Of a stretch of DNA of 64,000 nucleotides, positions 7,698-20,822 are shown piece after piece. Both the position numbers and the translations under genes were made by a program. This stretch comes from Nitrospira sp. (GTDB lineage: Bacteria > Nitrospirota > Nitrospiria > Nitrospirales > Nitrospiraceae). The notes under the pieces are model-generated. The model was not told where the DNA came from. It did not search any database and was given only the letters and a program-made list of their open reading frames with translations. How positions within the stretch are numbered: position 1 is the stretch's first letter; each line of letters starts with the position of its first letter. The stretch lies in assembly GCA_009594865.1 (NCBI GenBank), contig VOPT01000011.1:1-64000 (forward strand), written 5' to 3'.

Positions 7698-9503
7698 CTA
7701 CTCTGCCGCTGAGTTCATCTTAGTCGAAGCGTCAGTTGTAACCCCGCCGGGTTGCCGTCCGGAGCAAACCGATGTTTGACTGAGCCTTGCCAGGTCCAAT
7801 ACCTGGGACACACGGGAAGCGATCCCGCGGTCGTGGGTAACAAACAGAAGAATCCGGTCACGAAATTCTTTAATTAAGTTGGTCACCACACGTTCACGAA
7901 TATCATGATCCAGTGCGGCGGTGCTTTCATCCAGCACAAGAACTTCCGGCCTTCGCAATACGGCACGGGCAATCCCCAAACGTTGTCGCTGCCCGCCGGA
8001 CAGGTTGCTTCCTTGATATTGCAGGACGGTCTCCTCGGCCTTGGGCAACCGGGCGATCACATCGTTGAGGCACGCGATCTCGCACGCATGCCGCACAACA
8101 TCGCGATCCATGGAGACGCCCAAAGTCAGGTTGTGAAGAATTGAATCATGAAACAAGGGGACTTGCTGCTCAACAACCCCCACATGCTGCCGCACTGAAA
8201 AGGAGCTGATTCCCGCGAGATCAAATCCATTCACAAGAATTCGGCCTTCGGTGGGGACGTACAGCTTCAGCAGGAGATCGATCAAGGTTGATTTTCCGGC
8301 TCCTGAAGGTCCAATCAGGGCATAGCTATGCCCCTTCTCAAAGCGGGTGTTTAAGTGATCGATCACGGGCTTTGCACGATGATAACGAAAACCGACCGAT
8401 TCAAACTCAATGGAAGAAATCCCTTTCTCCAACTGTGTGCCAACCTCCGCGGGAGTCGATTCAAGGGCCGCCACGAGTGCCATTGCACGGGTGACCTCCT
8501 CCCCTGCCATAAGATCAGACACCGTTCGCATAAAGATGTCGAGGGACTGACCAAGAAGCGGGAAGAAGCGCAGGAGTAAGATCGCAAGAACCACAAAATC
8601 CGCATAGCGATCTGTAAAGCTGCCATCACCAAGGAGGAGAACAGTAGCAACAGCCGCTCCAGACACCAACACCAATGAAGGCCCTGTCCGTGCCAGATCC
8701 TTCAAGGCATCCACCTTGAAGCACGTCCACGCGTACGTGCCAATCATGTCCGCATAGCGTGTCGCAACAAAGCCTTCGGCATTGTAGGCCCGAATCGTTC
8801 GTAGGGAGTTCAAACATTCTACGAAGTGGGTATTCAGAATCCGCGATTGCATTTGCTGCTCCGTCCCCAGTTGGTGCGAGCGACGGAATGACCCCAGCAA
8901 CGCCACCCCTGCGATAGCGATGAAGAGTGACACGCCCCCGCCTGTCCATGGTGACTTCACAGTTATCGCCAACCAATAGAGCCCGGCAAGCGCCATGACT
9001 GGTACCAATCGACTCACTGACATCACGATCTGACTAGCTCGGTTCGCTTCGTCTCCCGCGAGGCTAATGTAATAGCCGATGGTATTCTTCTGAACGTCGC
9101 GAAAGCTTAACCCTTGGACGAACGCCTTGAACGCACGGGATGAAAAATGTGCAATCAAATCCCGATACACACGACTAACCGTCAAGCTCGCGGCGGTATC
9201 GGTGAGCAGCCTCGTCATCATGAGGCCGAGAAACAGGAGCAGGAATGCGCGAAGAGTCGAAGGTGCGCCGAAGGCATCCATAAGCCATCGCCAGCGACTG
9301 CCTGCAGCAATTTCCTCTCCGGAGGCCAAGTGTGTAACCGGGAACAAACTCAGCATAGCCGCCAATTCAAGGCTGACAGAAAGGAGGGAAAGGAGGGTCG
9401 CAAGACACAGGATGGGAAATTGGCGAAACGAATACGAAAGAAGCCCGACCAGGGCCTTGCCCCGGCCGATCACTCCGGGCTTGACGGGATCATCACTATT
9501 CAT
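7698..9503 (-). CDS. ABC transporter, fused permease/ATPase (lipid-linked glycan flippase type)
   Basis: The 601-residue half-transporter has about six membrane segments in residues ~20-330 and an ATPase domain at ~360-570: Walker A GPSGAGKST, signature LSGGQRQR, Walker B VLVLDEST and the H-loop VTHD. The architecture is that of MsbA and PglK. A second, canonical MsbA is encoded at 45954-47690 beside lpxB, so this copy is more likely the exporter or flippase of the glycan made by this cluster. It overlaps the preceding FkbM gene by 8 bp. A ~40-residue tail after the ATPase is unassigned. Confidence 0.88.
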   Translation of the reverse strand: MNSDDPVKPGVIGRGKALVGLLSYSFRQFPILCLATLLSLLSVSLELAAMLSLFPVTHLASGEEIAAGSRWRWLMDAFGAPSTLRAFLLLFLGLMMTRLLTDTAASLTVSRVYRDLIAHFSSRAFKAFVQGLSFRDVQKNTIGYYISLAGDEANRASQIVMSVSRLVPVMALAGLYWLAITVKSPWTGGGVSLFIAIAGVALLGSFRRSHQLGTEQQMQSRILNTHFVECLNSLRTIRAYNAEGFVATRYADMIGTYAWTCFKVDALKDLARTGPSLVLVSGAAVATVLLLGDGSFTDRYADFVVLAILLLRFFPLLGQSLDIFMRTVSDLMAGEEVTRAMALVAALESTPAEVGTQLEKGISSIEFESVGFRYHRAKPVIDHLNTRFEKGHSYALIGPSGAGKSTLIDLLLKLYVPTEGRILVNGFDLAGISSFSVRQHVGVVEQQVPLFHDSILHNLTLGVSMDRDVVRHACEIACLNDVIARLPKAEETVLQYQGSNLSGGQRQRLGIARAVLRRPEVLVLDESTAALDHDIRERVVTNLIKEFRDRILLFVTHDRGIASRVSQVLDLARLSQTSVCSGRQPGGVTTDASTKMNSAAE

Positions 9504-10546: not shown

Positions 10547-11884
10547 CTAAATTGAAAACAGCTGACTGATGACATCCTTCGTGCGGGAAAGCTCATACCG
10601 CATACGACCTTTTATGGCCGCCTTTACGATACTTCTACGGGACGCAGGAGATTGTCGTCGTGAAGAGACGGCCCGCATAGCGATTTGAACCGCCCACCGC
10701 TCTCCCCTCTCAACCTGTGACCCGCGGTGGATTCCCGCTGACCCATCAAACACAATGAGAGTACCTGAGGGTCCCAGAAACGTATCCTCGCCGGCTAACA
10801 AACGCCGCGACAAATCGCTTTCATCTACGATGTCATCGCCGAAATGCGTAGTCCCACGAAATGCAGACGGTAAGGTCAGAAGGTCTCGTCTGTGATCCTT
10901 CAGAAAAAACCGGGGACGATAATAACCGAGCTTATAGTCCAATCCGTCGGCCTCCATTGGGAATGACTTTGTCTGCTCCATATCAAATCCTTTGTGTAGA
11001 GCAAACAGAAACGGGGAACGTCGCCATCGATGGCTCCCTCTCACATACCGAAAAGGACCGGAAGCCGAATCAACATCCGAAAGATAGAGCATCGCTTTCA
11101 CGATATCGGGATCTGCGTCAAAATGCATGTACACCGTTTTTGCTGTGGGGAGGTCGCTATCCGCGTAGCAGTCCTTATACCAACTCTGACGATGATGCGA
11201 AAAATCCAAGGCTGCATACAGCCATTCCATTTCACATCCCATGTAGTGCGACACCGCCGACACAATGCCTTTCGAGTGGAGCGCTCGCTGAATGGAGCCT
11301 GTGGCGGGTGAACATGCATCGAGTGGCATCGCGCAATGGCGTCCTGGGCTGGCTTCTTTACGCTTTCGCAACACAGAACGCTCCCACCAGGTCTGGCGCC
11401 AAACAGAGGATGCCAGATCAGCAGTCACCGGACATTGGTAGTACCCGTTCGTCCGAAGACCGTCTACGAACCCCGTCAGGTTTTCCGGCAACGCACGAGG
11501 ATCCGTAGGTTTCTCTGCACGGCGGCGATCGAAAACGAGCTGATCGCTCAGAAATTGACGGGCGCGATCGATGGCGTGCTTCGTGGTCCGACGCAGTTCG
11601 TCACGCATATCAGCGCTAAGGACGTATTGTTCCAATTCAGTGAACAGCGGCCCTGCCTTTGCCGCAAATTCAGTCGACACATTCTCAGAATCGGGCCTTC
11701 CGGCCTTAAGCAAATCCAGATAGGCATTGTCTATAGACTCAATGAATCGGAACACAACGTTATCGTCAAGCGTGCATGTGACAGTGAGGCCACTGAACGC
11801 CGGATGTTGATCATATTGAATACAAGGAAGGGCCAGGTCGGATTCCATCATAGTGTCTCGGATCGAACAATGTGTGGGCAACAT
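10547..11884 (-). CDS. Phytanoyl-CoA dioxygenase-like (PhyH) Fe(II)/2-oxoglutarate oxygenase
   Basis: The 445-residue protein has the facial-triad pattern of 2OG-Fe(II) oxygenases: HFDAD near residue 250 (HxD), a PFRYVRGSH strand typical of PhyH proteins, and a distal His in GIHRGSQ near residue 385 followed by RWAVQI, whose Arg would bind 2-oxoglutarate. PhyH enzymes hydroxylate many substrates; here the setting suggests oxidation of a sugar or lipid carrier group. The ATG at 11884 overlaps the upstream stop as TAATG; a second ATG lies at 11851-11848. The first ~140 residues match nothing I recognise. Confidence 0.75.
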   Translation of the reverse strand: MLPTHCSIRDTMMESDLALPCIQYDQHPAFSGLTVTCTLDDNVVFRFIESIDNAYLDLLKAGRPDSENVSTEFAAKAGPLFTELEQYVLSADMRDELRRTTKHAIDRARQFLSDQLVFDRRRAEKPTDPRALPENLTGFVDGLRTNGYYQCPVTADLASSVWRQTWWERSVLRKRKEASPGRHCAMPLDACSPATGSIQRALHSKGIVSAVSHYMGCEMEWLYAALDFSHHRQSWYKDCYADSDLPTAKTVYMHFDADPDIVKAMLYLSDVDSASGPFRYVRGSHRWRRSPFLFALHKGFDMEQTKSFPMEADGLDYKLGYYRPRFFLKDHRRDLLTLPSAFRGTTHFGDDIVDESDLSRRLLAGEDTFLGPSGTLIVFDGSAGIHRGSQVERGERWAVQIAMRAVSSRRQSPASRRSIVKAAIKGRMRYELSRTKDVISQLFSI

Positions 11885-13683
11885 TACACGGTAGCGATAG
11901 CGGCATCCCGGCGTTCTTCGCCTAACGCCTGCAGCCGCCGAGCTAAGTTTCCTCCGAAGGAGGACCGCTGAGATTCGTACAGTGCCTGAGCGATGCGGGT
12001 GATCTCATATCGCAACATGCGATCTTCCAGATCAAGCGTCACCTGACTCGCTTGCGTTCGAGAGGCAAGCTCTAATGGCGTCTCGAGGCTCCCTCGCAGC
12101 AACGCATCGATATCGTTTCCCCCAGCAAGCACCTTCGGCCGCCGGCGACAGTCTCCTCGCTGATCAAAATTTGGATCAAATTTCCTCCGGAGCCGGTGAA
12201 GAATATGCTTTCCAAATGAAAGATTAGGAGGATTCACATGTTCTTTTTTCGGATATCCATCCTGGATATCGATCACCCCGTACCCATACTCCACGGCTAA
12301 CCATCGATACGCCATCCGCACATGTTCAAGGCTCCATCCGTCCGTGAGAGCACGCTCAATCTGTGCAAAATAATCTTTCTCAGTCGTCCCCGCATAATTC
12401 AGGTCCGATGGGTAAAATACCAACTCCGGCGAGTAGATTACTACAGGAAGTCCGAGGAGGCTCATTTCTTTGCCCGCGGTCGACCAGGCGTTCAAAAACA
12501 CATCGGCAATGTCGGCTAAATCATAGATCGACACTTCATCCGTTGGCCAATTCACGCGAACATTGGAGGGAAGGGTCGCAAACAATTGTTCCAACAACCT
12601 GGCATGTTCCGATTTTCCCCCGCTACGCATAGTACCGGGAAATTCACGCGGATGGACTCGGACAATAAGAAAGAGATCCGGCCTGGTCGATACCCATTTA
12701 ACCAAGGCCCGAATCCAATCCACCTGGCGTGGGAACAACTGTGAATAGTCCGATGGCAAGGCACCCACAACCTCGGCGGCAAAACGCTCATCGTAGCTGC
12801 TCATTGTCGCGACTAACACCCGCTGTGATGCGGCAACCCCGAAGAAGCGAGACAAATCTTGGGGGCCCTTACCGGCGCCCGACGAAAAGGTGAAGGCACT
12901 GCTGCCGCCAAGCAATACGAGAAAATGATCGGTGATTTGCCGCATCACTTCCGGAGGGCACGGTCGTTGTTGAAATTCCGGCCATTTCTCAATTAATCGT
13001 TTCACGTACCGAAAGGTATAGTCCCGTCCAAACATGAGGGATTGCAGGCGATGAGCAAGGTTGCCTCCGGCATGCAGAAAATAGTGGGGAATGCCGCGTC
13101 GCTCACCAAGCATGCAAACGGTCCGGTTCACGGAATAGAGAGAGTTGTAGACGACGATGTGATCAGGACGCTCCCTGTCCAGTATCTTTCGGACACCAAA
13201 TAGTGATAGCAGCACATACCGGAGACTGATCTGATATTCCTTCCACTCAGAGTCGTTCAACGCCAAGCTCAACTTTTTGTGCCTGAGCAACAATTCATAG
13301 GTGGCCAGCTTTCCGACTGGCACCTGATCAACAACAAGATGCGGAAAATTTTCCGGTGTTGTTTGCCCCAGAATACCCTCAACTTGGTGATGGTCCTCGG
13401 CATCGAGTACGTGCCCAAGATCATATCCGGCCAAACTAAATTCCCGCCGCAGGAGGTCTCTTGATGCCACACATTGCCGACAGATATCTTCGCGCTGGTG
13501 CCCCTCGCTCTGCCATCCAACCCGAGCAGCATCCATGACCACGCACTGCTTTGAAAACACCTGGCCGCATGTGATGTAGATCAGCTCATGGCCATGCTTC
13601 ACCAAGGTCTCTGCCACAAGTGCCTCAGGAAAGGCATGCACCCAGATTCCCGAGTGCGGCGCAAAGAACAGCACCTTACTCAC
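11884..13683 (-). CDS. Capsule-polysaccharide-type GT-B glycosyltransferase
   Basis: The 599-residue protein begins with a Rossmann-like segment (KVLFFAPHSGIWVHAFPEALVAE) and has a C-terminal GT-B half with RVHPRE near residue 350 and IYDLADIADVFLNAWSTAGKEMSLLG, reminiscent of capsule and Kdo-type transferases (PF05159-like). The GTG at 13683 has GAGGT 6 nt upstream. It lies directly after pseI (4 bp gap), so it is a good candidate for the transferase that uses the CMP-activated pseudaminic acid. That role is inferred from position only. The last ~120 residues are charged and unassigned. Confidence 0.7.
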   Translation of the reverse strand: MSKVLFFAPHSGIWVHAFPEALVAETLVKHGHELIYITCGQVFSKQCVVMDAARVGWQSEGHQREDICRQCVASRDLLRREFSLAGYDLGHVLDAEDHHQVEGILGQTTPENFPHLVVDQVPVGKLATYELLLRHKKLSLALNDSEWKEYQISLRYVLLSLFGVRKILDRERPDHIVVYNSLYSVNRTVCMLGERRGIPHYFLHAGGNLAHRLQSLMFGRDYTFRYVKRLIEKWPEFQQRPCPPEVMRQITDHFLVLLGGSSAFTFSSGAGKGPQDLSRFFGVAASQRVLVATMSSYDERFAAEVVGALPSDYSQLFPRQVDWIRALVKWVSTRPDLFLIVRVHPREFPGTMRSGGKSEHARLLEQLFATLPSNVRVNWPTDEVSIYDLADIADVFLNAWSTAGKEMSLLGLPVVIYSPELVFYPSDLNYAGTTEKDYFAQIERALTDGWSLEHVRMAYRWLAVEYGYGVIDIQDGYPKKEHVNPPNLSFGKHILHRLRRKFDPNFDQRGDCRRRPKVLAGGNDIDALLRGSLETPLELASRTQASQVTLDLEDRMLRYEITRIAQALYESQRSSFGGNLARRLQALGEERRDAAIATV

Positions 13684-13687
13684 AGCA

Positions 13688-14740
13688 TTACCTCACCAAC
13701 TCCCACGTCACGGCCGTCCCCTTCTTCACATCTTTGGCGACCGACTTCCCTATAAGGACGTCGTAGAATTTTGGCGGAAGTCCCATTCCAGGCCGCACAA
13801 TGCGGAGCGTCTCGGGGGTGAACCGTTCCCCTGCCTTCATATCCTGCGCAACATATAATGAGCGTCGAAAAACCAGGGAGGACCGCTCTTCATCGAGAAC
13901 TCCATAAGTGACTGATCCTAAAGCTTGCCATGCGCGACTCGTCTCATTCACCAAACTGGCCAATTCAGCCGGCTCCAAGGAGAAGTCTGCATCAACCCCT
14001 CCGTCACTGCGTTGTAAAGTCACGTGCTTCTCGATTGCCACCGCGCCAAGCGCCACGCTTGCCACTGCAGCACCAATTCCTAGCGTATGGTCAGACAAGC
14101 CAACTGGACAATCGAACGTAGCCCGCATATGGGGAATGGTGAGCAGATGACTATGCTCCGGCGAGGCAGGATAGCTGCTTGTGCATTTGAGCAACAGGAG
14201 TTCTCGACATCCGGCTTCTCGGGCGGCGGACACCGCCTCTTCGATGTCAGAAAGGCTGGCCATCCCCGTAGACAGAATCAGGGGTTTGCCCGTCTTAGCG
14301 ACCCTACGGATTAACGGAAGGTCGCTATTTTCAAAAGAGGCGATCTTGTAGCAGGGCACCTCCAATCGCTCCAAGAAGTCCACCGCCGTGGAATCGAATG
14401 GGGTACTAAACACGATCAACCCCAATTCACGACATCGCCGGAAAATCGGCTCATGCCACTCCCACGGCGTATACGCCTTCTGATACAGCTCATACAACGA
14501 ATGTCCCCGCCACAGGCTTTGCGGGTCTGAGATAAAGAACTCCCCTTCACGAACATCAAGGGTCATGGTATCTGCGGTATACGTCTGTAATTTCAGAGCA
14601 TGTGCCCCCGAACGGGCGACCGCTTCAACGATGGCCATCGCGCGTTCATACGACTGGTTGTGATTGCCAGACATTTCCGCCATGACGAATGGCGATGAGC
14701 TATTACCCACAACTCGCCCTTGAATGCGGATCTCCATCAT
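13688..14740 (-). CDS. pseI: Pseudaminic acid synthase PseI
   Basis: The 350-residue protein belongs to the NeuB/PseI/LegI family: AEMSGNHNQS at the N-terminus, ALKLQTYTADTMTLD, KIASFENSD, and a C-terminal SAF-like antifreeze domain (RRSLYVAQDMKAGE). The wording SGNHNQS with LQTYTADTMT is the PseI form rather than NeuB. It condenses phosphoenolpyruvate with 2,4-diacylamino-2,4,6-trideoxy-L-altrose to give pseudaminic acid. GAGG lies 4 nt before the ATG. It is found in the pse operon, 15 bp after the PIG-L gene and 4 bp before the glycosyltransferase gene. High confidence. Confidence 0.93.
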   Translation of the reverse strand: MMEIRIQGRVVGNSSSPFVMAEMSGNHNQSYERAMAIVEAVARSGAHALKLQTYTADTMTLDVREGEFFISDPQSLWRGHSLYELYQKAYTPWEWHEPIFRRCRELGLIVFSTPFDSTAVDFLERLEVPCYKIASFENSDLPLIRRVAKTGKPLILSTGMASLSDIEEAVSAAREAGCRELLLLKCTSSYPASPEHSHLLTIPHMRATFDCPVGLSDHTLGIGAAVASVALGAVAIEKHVTLQRSDGGVDADFSLEPAELASLVNETSRAWQALGSVTYGVLDEERSSLVFRRSLYVAQDMKAGERFTPETLRIVRPGMGLPPKFYDVLIGKSVAKDVKKGTAVTWELVR

Positions 14741-14755: not shown

Positions 14756-15439
14756 TTATCTGACGAGCCGTGACAACTCGAATGCCTCAACGGCCTGCTT
14801 CCCAACACTTGCACCACGCCAGTGGGCAAGAGCCTCGACCCCTCGATATGAGCGAGGATGAGGCCACGGCCGCATCTCCATTTGATAACACTGAAGCGCC
14901 TCGAGCTTTCGGGCCAAGGTATGTTCGATATCCTCATACCAGTTAGGGTGAAATGGTTGAGCGATGCTCCACTCCGTACTAGATGGCACCTCAAAACACA
15001 ACAGGGTTTGAATCGTTGAACCAGGGAGTGGACGACAGGCCGTGTGGACAGCACGATGGACAATCTGATGGTCGATATTGAGATCCCCGCTGTGGTGGGT
15101 CAGCACCGTATGAATCTGTCTCTCCACGAGAAACAGTTCTACGCGCTTGACGATATCCAGCAAATCCGTCCCATCCATCCGATTGTCTGGAAACCCTCCA
15201 AAAGCAACACTCTGCACACCGAGCACCTTGGCCGCAGCAAGAGCGGCCCGTCTCAGCATATCGAGTTCATAATCCTTACCCTCTTCATGGCCCAAAGGAT
15301 TACGACTAGTCGCCCCCTCCCCCAGTACCAAGACATGCACGTCGTGGCCGGAATCAGCCAACCGCGCCATGGTACCGCCACAACCAAGGACTTCATCGTC
15401 GGGATGGGCACAGATGACACCTATCCTATTTGTCATCAT
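14756..15439 (-). CDS. PIG-L family deacetylase
   Basis: The 227-residue protein opens with the zinc-binding AHPDDEVLGCGGT motif and has the distal HHSGDLNIDHQIVH motif, both diagnostic of PIG-L/LmbE N-deacetylases. These remove N-acyl groups from amino sugars. Its place between two formyltransferase modules and pseI suggests that it trims an N-acetyl group so that another acyl group can be attached, or modifies the finished nonulosonate; that is inference. The ATG at 15439 overlaps the formyltransferase gene by 14 bp. Confidence 0.88.
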   Translation of the reverse strand: MMTNRIGVICAHPDDEVLGCGGTMARLADSGHDVHVLVLGEGATSRNPLGHEEGKDYELDMLRRAALAAAKVLGVQSVAFGGFPDNRMDGTDLLDIVKRVELFLVERQIHTVLTHHSGDLNIDHQIVHRAVHTACRPLPGSTIQTLLCFEVPSSTEWSIAQPFHPNWYEDIEHTLARKLEALQCYQMEMRPWPHPRSYRGVEALAHWRGASVGKQAVEAFELSRLVR

Positions 15440-16112
15440 CGACCACCGTAATCACCACATCAGCCCGTAGCCGGTCTTCCCTGAGCGCCGCACGAGAAAA
15501 CTCAAATCGCAACTTTCCGACCTGTAGAAATGCAGGAGGATACCCCTCGGCATCCAGCATGCGGATGACATCATAGGTCTCTTGGACAGTCCGCAGATCG
15601 GCAAGGTTCCCTTCCGATGGTTTTCTCCGTTTGAAAGCCACCGGAGTTCCCTCCTGCGGCCTTGGTATTGGACGATTCTGCAGGATCTCCACGATCATGT
15701 CCTCAATGATACGACTCGCGTGGGAATAAATGTCCTGTGCCGTCCCCTGCAAAGAAAGAGGGTGCTTCATGTAGACTGGACCAGCATCCACCTCTGCCAC
15801 GCAACGGAGTGCTGAGACTTTGGTCTCACTCACCCCCCGGGCAATAAGGTTTTGAAGCGGACTGCCGCCCCGACCAAAAGGAACATCCGTCATGTGAAAA
15901 ATCACACACTCAAACTGTTCATGAATCTCCTGCGGGACGATATAGGACCAATGCGGAAAAAACACATAGTCCGGTTTCATCCGGCTGAGATACTCGACGG
16001 TGAGCGCATCTTTAGTTGTGATCAGCGAACAGGCTACACCGGTCCTTCGAGCCACTTCCTCGGTCATCTGTGGCCGCCATACTCGACTCGAAGCGATCAC
16101 GCAAGACGCCAT
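15426..16112 (-). CDS. Formyltransferase-fold protein (PseJ-like) of the pse cluster
   Basis: The 228-residue protein is related to the N-terminal domain of methionyl-tRNA and sugar N-formyltransferases. The loop FHMTDVPFGRGGSP aligns with the family's HxSLLPxxRGxxP loop and keeps the His; VDAGPVYMK supplies the Asp. The Asn two residues before the His in classic enzymes is Ile here. A formyl group on N7 of pseudaminic acid is known (PseJ), so this is a plausible PseJ. An ATG at 16112 is used; a GTG at 16121 lies nearer to a strong AAGGAGG and may be used instead. It overlaps or abuts the stop of the PseG fusion. Confidence 0.75.
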   Translation of the reverse strand: MASCVIASSRVWRPQMTEEVARRTGVACSLITTKDALTVEYLSRMKPDYVFFPHWSYIVPQEIHEQFECVIFHMTDVPFGRGGSPLQNLIARGVSETKVSALRCVAEVDAGPVYMKHPLSLQGTAQDIYSHASRIIEDMIVEILQNRPIPRPQEGTPVAFKRRKPSEGNLADLRTVQETYDVIRMLDAEGYPPAFLQVGKLRFEFSRAALREDRLRADVVITVVDDDK

Positions 16113-16120
16113 GACGCACA

Positions 16121-17917
16121 CTAGCCTCCTTCAGGGATTCGTCGGTGCTCTATTCGGACAACGTACTGATGCCCATCCAATTCAAAAAAAGCCGGATAGC
16201 GCTCATTGTCCACAACTCGAAGCAAGGCGAATTGTTCTCGCAACGTTTTATCAAGATCTAGCCGGCTATCTTCTGGAGTTCTTCGGGGATAATAACTACT
16301 CTCCCCTCGCTGTACCGTCGCGTCAGTGAGAAGCCAGGGGTAACTTTCCACGAAACGACGGCAGAGTGCAAGGGTTGCACGAGCCTGCTCTCGCCGAAGG
16401 TCGCCACATAGTTCATAGCCGGCAAACCTGAGCTGATCGGTAAGATAGACGTCCCCTGCATCAACCGCCTCAGCGGCCTCAAGCAACAAGACGGGAATCT
16501 CGTTTTTCCCTTCGAGAATTTGCCACGTAAGAGGAGCCCATCCCTTCCCTAACGGTAACGGGCTTTCATGAACAACAAGATTGTTTGTATTACGCGCTAG
16601 TACCTGAGGCCGCGCGAGTTGGCCGCAACTGAGGTAAAACGCGCAATCACCGGCGGGAATATCTGCGACCTGGTGAACCCACGAAACGATGTGGCCTTGA
16701 GCCCTGAACGAGTCAATAAGAGTCGGCAGGAATTCGTTAAGCCAGCTGTCCTTGTCCGAGACAACCGCGATCGAGAGTTTCCGAGGAAACAGAGCCAACG
16801 ACACCCGGTGCGCGCCTTTTCCATCCACTAACTTACGCGCAGCCTGCCGCATGACTCCCAACCGACTCGGATCACGCATGCAGGCTTCCACTGAAGCCAC
16901 AATATCTGCAACAGATACTCCTGCCGAGGGTCCCAAATACGTTCCAGCCCCGAAACTTGCGACCGCCTCACCGATATGGCGTTGATTGTCAGCCACTGCA
17001 AGCATGATAGAGGGCAGCCCGAGAACGCAGCGTTCCCATGCCGCAGATCCCGCCGCACCAATCGCCAAATCGGCATCGCCCATTAATCGATGAAACTCTC
17101 GGCTATGTGAATGCACTCGCCACTTGGAGCTCCCTGCACATCGCTTCTGAACAGATGTTCTGTGTGGGTTCGAAGCCCCGATCACAATGTCTACCTCTAC
17201 GTCGGCAAGAGCCGGATTTTCGAAGGCATCCAAAACCTTCGATGTCTCGTTGGTAGGATCAGCCCCACCCATGAATACAAGCACTCTCTTAAGCATATTG
17301 GTGCGCTTCCCGAGCGTTGCGCGCAGGGCAGCGAACTCTTCCCGCAGGAGCGCATACTGCGGACCCGCTAACAGTCTCGAGGAACCATCAAGATAGTTTT
17401 GATATCGCACGCGAGGGTTATGATAATAATTCTGGTCGAGCAAAACATCACAGTGATGCGCACGATCAGAAAGATCATCGATCACGAGGACCTGCCGCAC
17501 GTTCCTCCTAATCGTCTGCTCCCACGCTTTGTCGAGGGCATAACTGTCTACAATTAACCAGTCGATAGGACCGACCGCTTGGAGGGCGGCAATCGTCTCC
17601 GTGCAATCAATTGACCAATCAACTTCCAACCAACCAGCATGCTTCATCCGACGGTCTGTCACCGTTTCTCCGGAGCGGGGAGCGCGTAGCTGAAGAACCG
17701 AGAAGCCCCACTCCCGAATGAGATCCATCGTGTGCCCCGCAAGAGCGCGACAAACAAAATGAACCTCGACCCCTTGCGCCCGGAACACGTCGGCTAACGC
17801 CAGACACCTCATTACATGCCCGATACCAACTTGCACGGAAGCATCGACACGAAATGCAACACGACCTGTCGGCGTTCCATCGAATCCTGTTCCCACACTC
17901 CCCCCCGAGCTTGACAC
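16121..17917 (-). CDS. pseG: PseG hydrolase fused to a formyltransferase-like domain
   Basis: A 598-residue protein in two parts. Residues ~18-370 are PseG, the UDP-sugar hydrolase that releases 2,4-diacylamino-2,4,6-trideoxy-L-altrose: FRVDASVQVGIGHVMRCL, VFMGGADPTNETSKVL and IGAAGSAAWERCVLGLP. Residues ~380-598 form a second domain resembling formyltransferases, with VVHESPLPLGKGWAPL (catalytic-type His) near 450 and AVDAGDVYL (Asp). Usual PseG is about 350 residues, so this is a fusion. Start GTG 17917, 18 bp after pseF; an in-frame GTG seven codons later follows a G-rich run and is an alternative. Confidence 0.88.
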   Translation of the reverse strand: MSSSGGSVGTGFDGTPTGRVAFRVDASVQVGIGHVMRCLALADVFRAQGVEVHFVCRALAGHTMDLIREWGFSVLQLRAPRSGETVTDRRMKHAGWLEVDWSIDCTETIAALQAVGPIDWLIVDSYALDKAWEQTIRRNVRQVLVIDDLSDRAHHCDVLLDQNYYHNPRVRYQNYLDGSSRLLAGPQYALLREEFAALRATLGKRTNMLKRVLVFMGGADPTNETSKVLDAFENPALADVEVDIVIGASNPHRTSVQKRCAGSSKWRVHSHSREFHRLMGDADLAIGAAGSAAWERCVLGLPSIMLAVADNQRHIGEAVASFGAGTYLGPSAGVSVADIVASVEACMRDPSRLGVMRQAARKLVDGKGAHRVSLALFPRKLSIAVVSDKDSWLNEFLPTLIDSFRAQGHIVSWVHQVADIPAGDCAFYLSCGQLARPQVLARNTNNLVVHESPLPLGKGWAPLTWQILEGKNEIPVLLLEAAEAVDAGDVYLTDQLRFAGYELCGDLRREQARATLALCRRFVESYPWLLTDATVQRGESSYYPRRTPEDSRLDLDKTLREQFALLRVVDNERYPAFFELDGHQYVVRIEHRRIPEGG

Positions 17918-17935: not shown

Positions 17936-18661
17936 TTACCGTTCTTCGCGCGACTCCTGCTCCCACACCTCAGAAAAGTGAGTGAGTGCTGCATACATAA
18001 GTTCAGCCTCACGCCAATCTTCAATCGTATCAATGTCTTTAACCAAATATCGAGGGACTACAATCCCGATGGAAGCCGGAGAGAAGAGTGGAACATCCTC
18101 CAGAAACGCTCCAGCTGTGCCCCAATAAAACTGCCCCGCGTCATGATAGGCCTCTTCGAGATCCTGCGATCGCGTCATGATGTGCTCAGGCTGAAAGGGT
18201 TCGACTGTCCCGTCCAGCCTTCGACGCAAAGCCCGCTGAATGGGAGCGGCGTAAGAGGTCACCGAAAAGGCAAAAGACCGTTCGGATCCGTGCAACAGCT
18301 CAAAACCTTGCCGGAGAAAGCGCGCCTGGAGGAACGGCGCCGTAGCGTAAATACAACAGGCGTGGGTGATGGACACTCCCCGTTGGTTTAACCACTGGAT
18401 CGCGTGCTTGGTAACCGCATTGGTCCCAGTGAAGTCATCAGATAGTTCAGGCGGACGTAGGAACGGAGTCTCTGCACCAAACTGAGCTGCAACGGAGGCA
18501 ATTTCCTCTTGGTCCGTGGAGACGATCACTTTATCGAAGAGGCCGCAGGACCTCGCGGCCTTAATCGAATAGGCAAGAATAGGCACTCCGCCAAAGAGCT
18601 TGATGTTCTTCTTTGGAATTCGCTTACTGCCTCCACGGGCAGGAATTACGGCAACGTTTAT
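17936..18661 (-). CDS. pseF: CMP-pseudaminic acid synthetase PseF, apparent ATA start
   Basis: The protein activates pseudaminic acid with CTP to CMP-Pse. From the first usual start (GTG 18586) the product would begin at PILAYSIKAA and lack the CTP-binding loop. Reading upstream in frame gives INVAVIPARGGSKRIPKKN, the conserved N-terminus of PseF/NeuA-type cytidylyltransferases, starting from ATA at 18659-18661. AGGGAGGT lies 6 nt before that ATA, the ideal spacing, and no ATG, GTG or TTG exists in frame between the upstream stop and 18586. ATA overlaps the pseC stop as ATAA, where ATGA would be expected. Full length is 241 residues, the family norm. The alternative is a sequencing error. Confidence 0.88.
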   Translation of the reverse strand: MNVAVIPARGGSKRIPKKNIKLFGGVPILAYSIKAARSCGLFDKVIVSTDQEEIASVAAQFGAETPFLRPPELSDDFTGTNAVTKHAIQWLNQRGVSITHACCIYATAPFLQARFLRQGFELLHGSERSFAFSVTSYAAPIQRALRRRLDGTVEPFQPEHIMTRSQDLEEAYHDAGQFYWGTAGAFLEDVPLFSPASIGIVVPRYLVKDIDTIEDWREAELMYAALTHFSEVWEQESREER

Positions 18662-19802
18662 TGCAATACCTCCCTAAGCGCAGTGATTATCTGATCTTGC
18701 TCAGATTCTTTGAGACTTGGATAGAGAGGGAGACTGATCGCTTCATGATAGTGTTGTTCAGCCGCAGGGAAATCCCCTTCGCGAAACCCAAAACGTCGGT
18801 AGTAGGGTTGTAGGTGCACGGGAATATAATGGACATTTACGCCAAAACCCCGCTCCCGCAGCTGATTGAAAACCTGCCGGCGTCGATCAGCAGACACATA
18901 CACCACATAGAGGTGCAACGCAGAACGGTTGGTAGTTGATCGTGGAAGCCATCGGACCGGTAAGCCTGGAAGAGCCGCATTGTAACGGGATGCCAACAGG
19001 TGACGTCGCGAAACAAACTCTTCAATGCGAGACAGCTGGCTTATTCCCAGCGCAGCCTGAAGATCGGTCATGCGATAATTGAACCCCAGCATGACCTGTT
19101 CATAATACCACGTCCCGTGCGTACTCCCGGTCATTTCCGCCGTGTCGCGCGTGATGCCGTGGGTCCTTAGGAGTGCCAGCTTCCTAGCCAACTCGGGCCG
19201 TCGCGTAGTCAACGCGCCACCTTCACCGGTTGTAATGATCTTTACCGGATGAAAACTAAACACCGTAATGTCACTGTGACGACAATCCCCCACGACGCCA
19301 TCAGAATATTTTGCACCGATCGCGTGTGAGGCATCTTCGATGATCCGAAACCCATAACGATGGGCGAGTCTCCCCATCTCCACCATATCGCAAGGCTCTC
19401 CCGAAAAATGGACTGGGATTACGACCTTGGGCAAGCCACCTTTAGCCTCTGCATCTTGCAGCTTTCTCGCGAGTGCTTGCACACCCATATTGGCGGTAGC
19501 AGGATCGATATCGACGAAATCAACTGTGGCATTGCAATACAACGCGCAGTTTGCGCTGGCCACAAACGTGTTGGGCGTAGTCCACACTCGATCGCCAGGG
19601 CCGACATCGAGAGCCAAACACGCAAGATGAAGCGCCGCCGTCGCGCTGGTCACAGCCACACTATATGGCACGTGACAATACGTGGCGACTGCCTGTTCAA
19701 ATCGAGGAATGGCGGGACCTTGAGTGATCCAATCAGAGCGAAGCACGGCCGTCACAGCCTGAATGTCTTCCTCAGAAATAGTTTGTCGTCCATACGGAAT
19801 CA

Positions 19803-19803
<1 letters not shown>
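18658..19803 (-). CDS. pseC: UDP-4-amino-4,6-dideoxy-L-AltNAc transaminase PseC
   Basis: The 381-residue PLP aminotransferase (DegT/AHBA family) matches PseC: IPYGRQTISEEDI at the start, TSATAALHLACLAL, EDASHAIGAKY, and the lysine that binds PLP in FSFHPVKIITTGEGG. It aminates C4 of the UDP-4-keto-6-deoxy-L-sugar made by PseB. It overlaps pseB by one base (TGATG) and pseF by four, so the three are translationally coupled. High confidence. Confidence 0.94.

Positions 19804-20822
<1,019 letters not shown>

Follow-up and report, generated by a model that had tools for sequence, protein, structure and literature searches.

A single open reading frame in a Nitrospira genome encodes the pseudaminic acid pathway hydrolase PseG fused to a formyltransferase-fold domain, here called FMTa. 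We interpret this protein as a bifunctional enzyme of pseudaminic acid (Pse) synthesis in which FMTa would carry out an N-formylation, PseG would act next and PseI would follow, with a PIG-L family deacetylase and a second formyltransferase-like protein (FMTb) acting as a separate unit; we assign this reading a probability of about 0.66. The window analyzed is the whole 64,000-nucleotide stretch of contig VOPT01000011.1. Its relevant genes lie in one operon, all on the minus strand, in the order PseB, PseC, PseF, PseG-FMTa, FMTb, PIG-L, PseI:

19803..20798, minus strand: PseB 4,6-dehydratase/5-epimerase (TIGR03589, 538 bits, cut-off 408)
18658..19803, minus strand: PseC aminotransferase (TIGR03588, 542 bits, cut-off 424)
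17936..18586, minus strand: PseF CMP-pseudaminic acid synthetase (TIGR03584, 282 bits, cut-off 206)
16790..17866, minus strand: PseG (UDP-sugar hydrolase) domain of the fusion, residues ~18-376 (TIGR03590, 3hbm, 3hbn)
16124..16780, minus strand: FMTa formyltransferase domain of the fusion, residues ~380-598 (NCBIfam, PDB, structure, 72 homologues)
15426..16121, minus strand: FMTb, second formyltransferase-like gene (PDB 1zgh, E 1.3e-68; PF21553, E 7e-21)
14756..15439, minus strand: PIG-L family N-deacetylase (PF02585, E 2.2e-25)
13688..14740, minus strand: PseI pseudaminic acid synthase (TIGR03586, 490 bits, cut-off 340)

A preliminary description of this DNA had proposed the PseG-formyltransferase architecture without stating its strand. 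The open reading frame occupies exactly positions 16121-17917 of the minus strand, and its product has 598 residues; the opposite (plus) strand contains stop codons throughout this interval. AlphaFold modeled the full fusion with a mean pLDDT of 92.6 and a pTM of 0.86. Across 149 genomes, comprising the window's own and its relatives, full-length matches were confined to one species pair: in a sister species of the genus the fusion is ~90% identical and continuous across the junction, and the differences fall mostly at third codon positions in the PseG half and the FMTa half alike. Purifying selection therefore acts on both halves, and because the second species keeps the junction intact with this pattern of change, an assembly or frameshift artefact is ruled out. 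A search of phage records returned no match.

Residues 19-317 of the fusion match the PseG model TIGR03590 at 309.4 bits (E 2.6e-92), against a curated equivalog cut-off of 153.55. The PseG half also aligns to PDB 3hbm (E 3.7e-14) across the GxGH motif, and its His34 aligns with His17 of Campylobacter jejuni PseG, so the active-site histidine of this motif is conserved. A structural search with the predicted full-length model matched this half to 3hbn with a Z-score of 28.7. The C. jejuni enzyme, a UDP-6-deoxy-AltdiNAc hydrolase (3hbm/3hbn), thus resembles the PseG half in sequence, fold, the His17 equivalent and operon context; however, it is a single-domain protein that acts after PseH, whereas the window's PseG is fused to a formyltransferase domain in a genome (84.8% complete) where PseH was not found.

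PseB, PseC, PseF, PseG and PseI all exceed their equivalog cut-offs. The listed PseF frame starts at a GTG codon, and its true start may lie further upstream because the model is matched only from profile position 25 onward. For PseH (TIGR03585), the best score in the window's genome, 18.7 bits, is below the cut-off of 93.1; at this level of completeness, a PseH-like GNAT could be missed. Profile searches of the operon recognized no 4-N-transferase besides the FMTa domain. Nearby genes encode an O-antigen ligase domain, a heptosyltransferase family protein, RmlD and GDP-mannose dehydratase types, an ABC transporter and glycosyltransferases, which suggests a locus for lipopolysaccharide or another surface polysaccharide. 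Directly after PseI, a gene at positions 11884-13683 encodes a 599-residue protein that matches glycosyltransferases only weakly (BFO_1060 family, E 4.6e-7); its product is a candidate transferase of the operon's sugar.

In the FMTa domain, residues ~412-588 match the formyltransferase models PRK06988 (E 6.5e-12), ArnA (E 4.6e-11) and fmt (E 5.5e-8), and the PDB sequences of ArnA structures match the domain with E 1.6e-10. The profile search suggested in the preliminary description, against Pfam Formyl_trans_N, gave a weaker result: the window's domain scored 18-20 bits, under the gathering cut-off of 26.1 (E 0.0026 with the whole protein and 0.00063 with the domain alone). The same model was matched at E≤0.001 by 50 of the 50 FMTa family members scanned, some of them above the cut-off (best E 7e-13). 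The full-length structural search in VIA-align returned the PseG half only, and the FMTa domain was folded and searched separately. AlphaFold predicted a formyltransferase fold for it (pLDDT 95.6), with Z-scores of 20.7 to PDB 1zgh, the nearest solved fold, 18.7 to WbkC and 17.3 to ArnA; the superpositions on WbkC and ArnA extend over 204-206 residues.

His and Asp motifs of the formyltransferase type had been noted in this domain, and they are indeed present: in window numbering, His450 and Asp486 are invariant in 72 FMTa homologues. The canonical Asn-x-His ... Asp triad is nonetheless incomplete, as Val448 takes the Asn position, where Val or Ile occurs in 72/72 homologues. We therefore classify FMTa as a formyltransferase-fold domain that would work like such an enzyme, rather than as a proven member of the family. 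A distinctive motif, WQILEGKN, is invariant in FMTa and absent from the aligned ArnA and 1zgh sequences. With ArnA, WbkC and VioF, FMTa shares a fold over ~200 residues, the invariant His and Asp and a sugar pathway context; it differs from them in the Val/Ile replacement of the triad Asn, in identity (18-21% in structural alignment) and in its presumed substrate, a UDP-altrose. Homology thus points to formyl transfer by FMTa, with a site that departs from the canonical one at the catalytic Asn.

FMTb, which overlaps the stop of the fusion gene by one base, likewise keeps the catalytic His and Asp and lacks the Asn of the canonical triad. The adjoining PIG-L protein has intact AHPDDE and HHxGDxxxDH motifs. 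PDB 1zgh, deposited as a Clostridium thermocellum ‘methionyl-tRNA formyltransferase’, is a clear orthologue of FMTb. The FMTb/1zgh homologues found here occupy pse loci next to a gene for a PIG-L deacetylase, which makes the deposited name probably incorrect; if that is true, this PDB entry, now labelled a tRNA enzyme, would need to be reassigned. The preliminary description had mentioned neither FMTb nor PIG-L, and both change the predicted product.

In the pathway as established, UDP removal by PseG follows acylation of the PseC product at its 4-amine by PseH (PMC7910423). The earlier suggestion that sugar release and formylation are coupled is supported as a functional link, as FMTa lies near pseG and tends to replace PseH; the order it implied needs correcting, since acylation of the 4-amine before UDP removal would place formylation first. 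The fusion would accordingly join two consecutive steps. We infer the following reactions and their order, together with the substrates, the donor and the product. FMTa would take over from PseH and formylate the PseC product at its 4-amine. The resulting formylated UDP-sugar would pass to the attached PseG half, which would cleave off UDP. PseI would then condense the released formylated sugar with phosphoenolpyruvate to give 7-N-formyl pseudaminic acid. FMTa and PseH, a GNAT protein, would share the step of 4-N-acylation; however, their folds are unrelated, and the acetyl-CoA donor of PseH contrasts with the formyl-THF presumed for FMTa. Because a formyl-adding enzyme probably replaces the usual acetyl-adding step, the organism likely makes a formylated pseudaminic acid.

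PIG-L and FMTb, probably a separate unit, would remove the other N-acetyl group and replace it, most likely with formyl; the end product may then be 5,7-di-N-formyl pseudaminic acid. A general scheme of modular acyl exchange, in which FMTa substitutes for PseH, PIG-L and FMTb re-formylate the second position to yield this di-N-formyl sugar and both formyltransferase-like families work with an Asn-less site, is more tentative, and we hold it at somewhat under even odds. There are precedents for such sugars: Pseudoalteromonas distincta KMM 638 makes a 7-formamido Pse, the 5-acetamido-7-formamido form (cited in PMC7281560), and Pse bearing lactoyl at N5 (PMC7281560) and 5-N-formyl legionaminic acid (PMC6137143) have also been described.

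We surveyed loci sampled by PseG, irrespective of FMTa, in the phyla of the window, Herbaspirillum (L018) and Desulforamulus (L012). Of 97 loci, 45 were complete, with PseB, PseC and PseI nearby; these include the window. Among the complete loci, 1 has both FMTa and GNAT/PseH, 5 have FMTa only, 29 have GNAT only and 10 have neither. This tendency to alternate has p=0.012 by Fisher's test, although only 6 complete loci contain FMTa and the counts are uncorrected for relatedness. PIG-L is present in 9/9 complete loci with FMTb versus 2/36 others (p=6e-8, relatedness again uncorrected). With one exception, the FMTb loci also hold GNAT or FMTa, which argues that FMTb is independent of the first acylation slot; because FMTb pairs with PIG-L in the company of either GNAT or FMTa, it points to a different amine. 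PseG is fused to FMTa in 2 of the 97 sampled loci and to a C-terminal PseH-like GNAT in 19 (L113, L116, L118, L119, L140, L149, L155, L187 and L198 are examples), so the joining of PseG to the transferase that would make its substrate recurs.

A genome scan for relatives identified 71 loci. The cultured Desulforamulus aquiferis (L012) has an operon like that of the window. FMTa is mostly a free-standing gene, usually just downstream of pseG; where the two are separate genes on one strand, it lies in most loci no more than ~100 bp from where pseG ends. The fusion occurs in six phyla (Bacillota, Cyanobacteriota, Pseudomonadota, Verrucomicrobiota, Methanobacteriota and the window's phylum), so it is not unique to the window. 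The ten fused FMTa rows fall in one 19-row clade beside nine separate ones. Repeated independent fusion is unsupported, because a single origin followed by later splits fits this clade equally well. Four loci have a PseG-GNAT-FMTa architecture (L019, L028, L030, L114), two have PseG-GNAT and an adjacent FMTa gene (L024, L025), and in four others FMTa adjoins GNAT or PseH (L036, L071, L072, L073). Since FMTa coexists with GNAT or PseH in this minority of loci, it is not a strict replacement of PseH everywhere.

Such coexistence, together with the incompleteness of the window's genome, would fit a role of FMTa on another amine or intermediate, such as the 2-amine exposed by PIG-L or a product of PseG or PseI, with 4-N-acylation by an unrecognized enzyme encoded elsewhere. 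We consider this unlikely: some pse loci have FMTa but no PIG-L (L137, L139, L145), and no free 2-amine would arise there, FMTa tends to alternate with GNAT/PseH, and PIG-L is tracked by FMTb rather than by FMTa.

Replacement of the catalytic Asn across the family could mean that FMTa transfers a different one-carbon or acyl group, or uses a donor other than N10-formyl-THF, and the invariant WQILEGKN motif, lacking in the aligned ArnA and 1zgh, is compatible with this. The invariant His and Asp in 72 homologues and a fold matching folate-dependent sugar N-formyltransferases over ~200 residues argue against this, and we regard a different group or donor as improbable. The missing Asn could also be taken to mean that the C-terminal half is a catalytically inactive domain which binds or presents the UDP-sugar or stabilizes PseG. 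That reading is more improbable still, given that FMTa is usually a gene of its own, that it is strongly conserved under purifying selection with both active-site residues invariant, and that the operon has no other recognized 4-N-transferase.

Pseudaminic acids occur on flagella, capsules and lipopolysaccharides, where their N-acyl groups contribute to antigenic diversity. If the formylation reading is true, formylated and acetylated forms could be predicted from genome sequence alone, the fusion would offer a ready-made biocatalyst that performs two steps towards formylated nonulosonic acids, and PIG-L with FMTb would explain replacement of the N-acetyl group inherited from UDP-GlcNAc. In the open-licence literature, our searches turned up no report of PseG fused to a formyltransferase, of the PIG-L and FMTb unit or of a role for PIG-L in making nonulosonic acids. 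The components are already known and many public genomes encode the fusion; the fusion and its product seem to be unstudied. Based on the sections of PMC5109656 that describe them, flagellin glycosylation islands of Geobacillus carry pse genes without pseH, some with an fmt gene. These PseH-less and in part formyltransferase-bearing loci resemble the present one and fit the formylation reading; however, in those sections formyl-for-acetyl exchange is proposed only for fmt3, on a different sugar, and neither the fusion nor the PIG-L unit is part of the description.

Several loci vary the genes around pseG. In Sulfurospirillum (L052, positions 8001-9104), FMTa is fused to a PseH that exceeds the curated cut-off, which places a formyltransferase and an acetyltransferase domain on one chain. 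At positions 10847-11479 of L130, a canonical formyltransferase of the NLHISYLP type (PF00551, 76 bits) lies between PseG and PseI; an Asn-x-His enzyme in the slot of FMTa supports formyl transfer at this step, rather than the chemistry of FMTa itself. In L111 (8899-13053) and L112 (8827-12793), where GNAT and FMTa were not found, pseG is flanked on one side by a SAM methyltransferase-like gene (checked against Pfam in L112) and on the other by an aminotransferase-like gene. This arrangement appears to be another variant of the amine-modifying slot.
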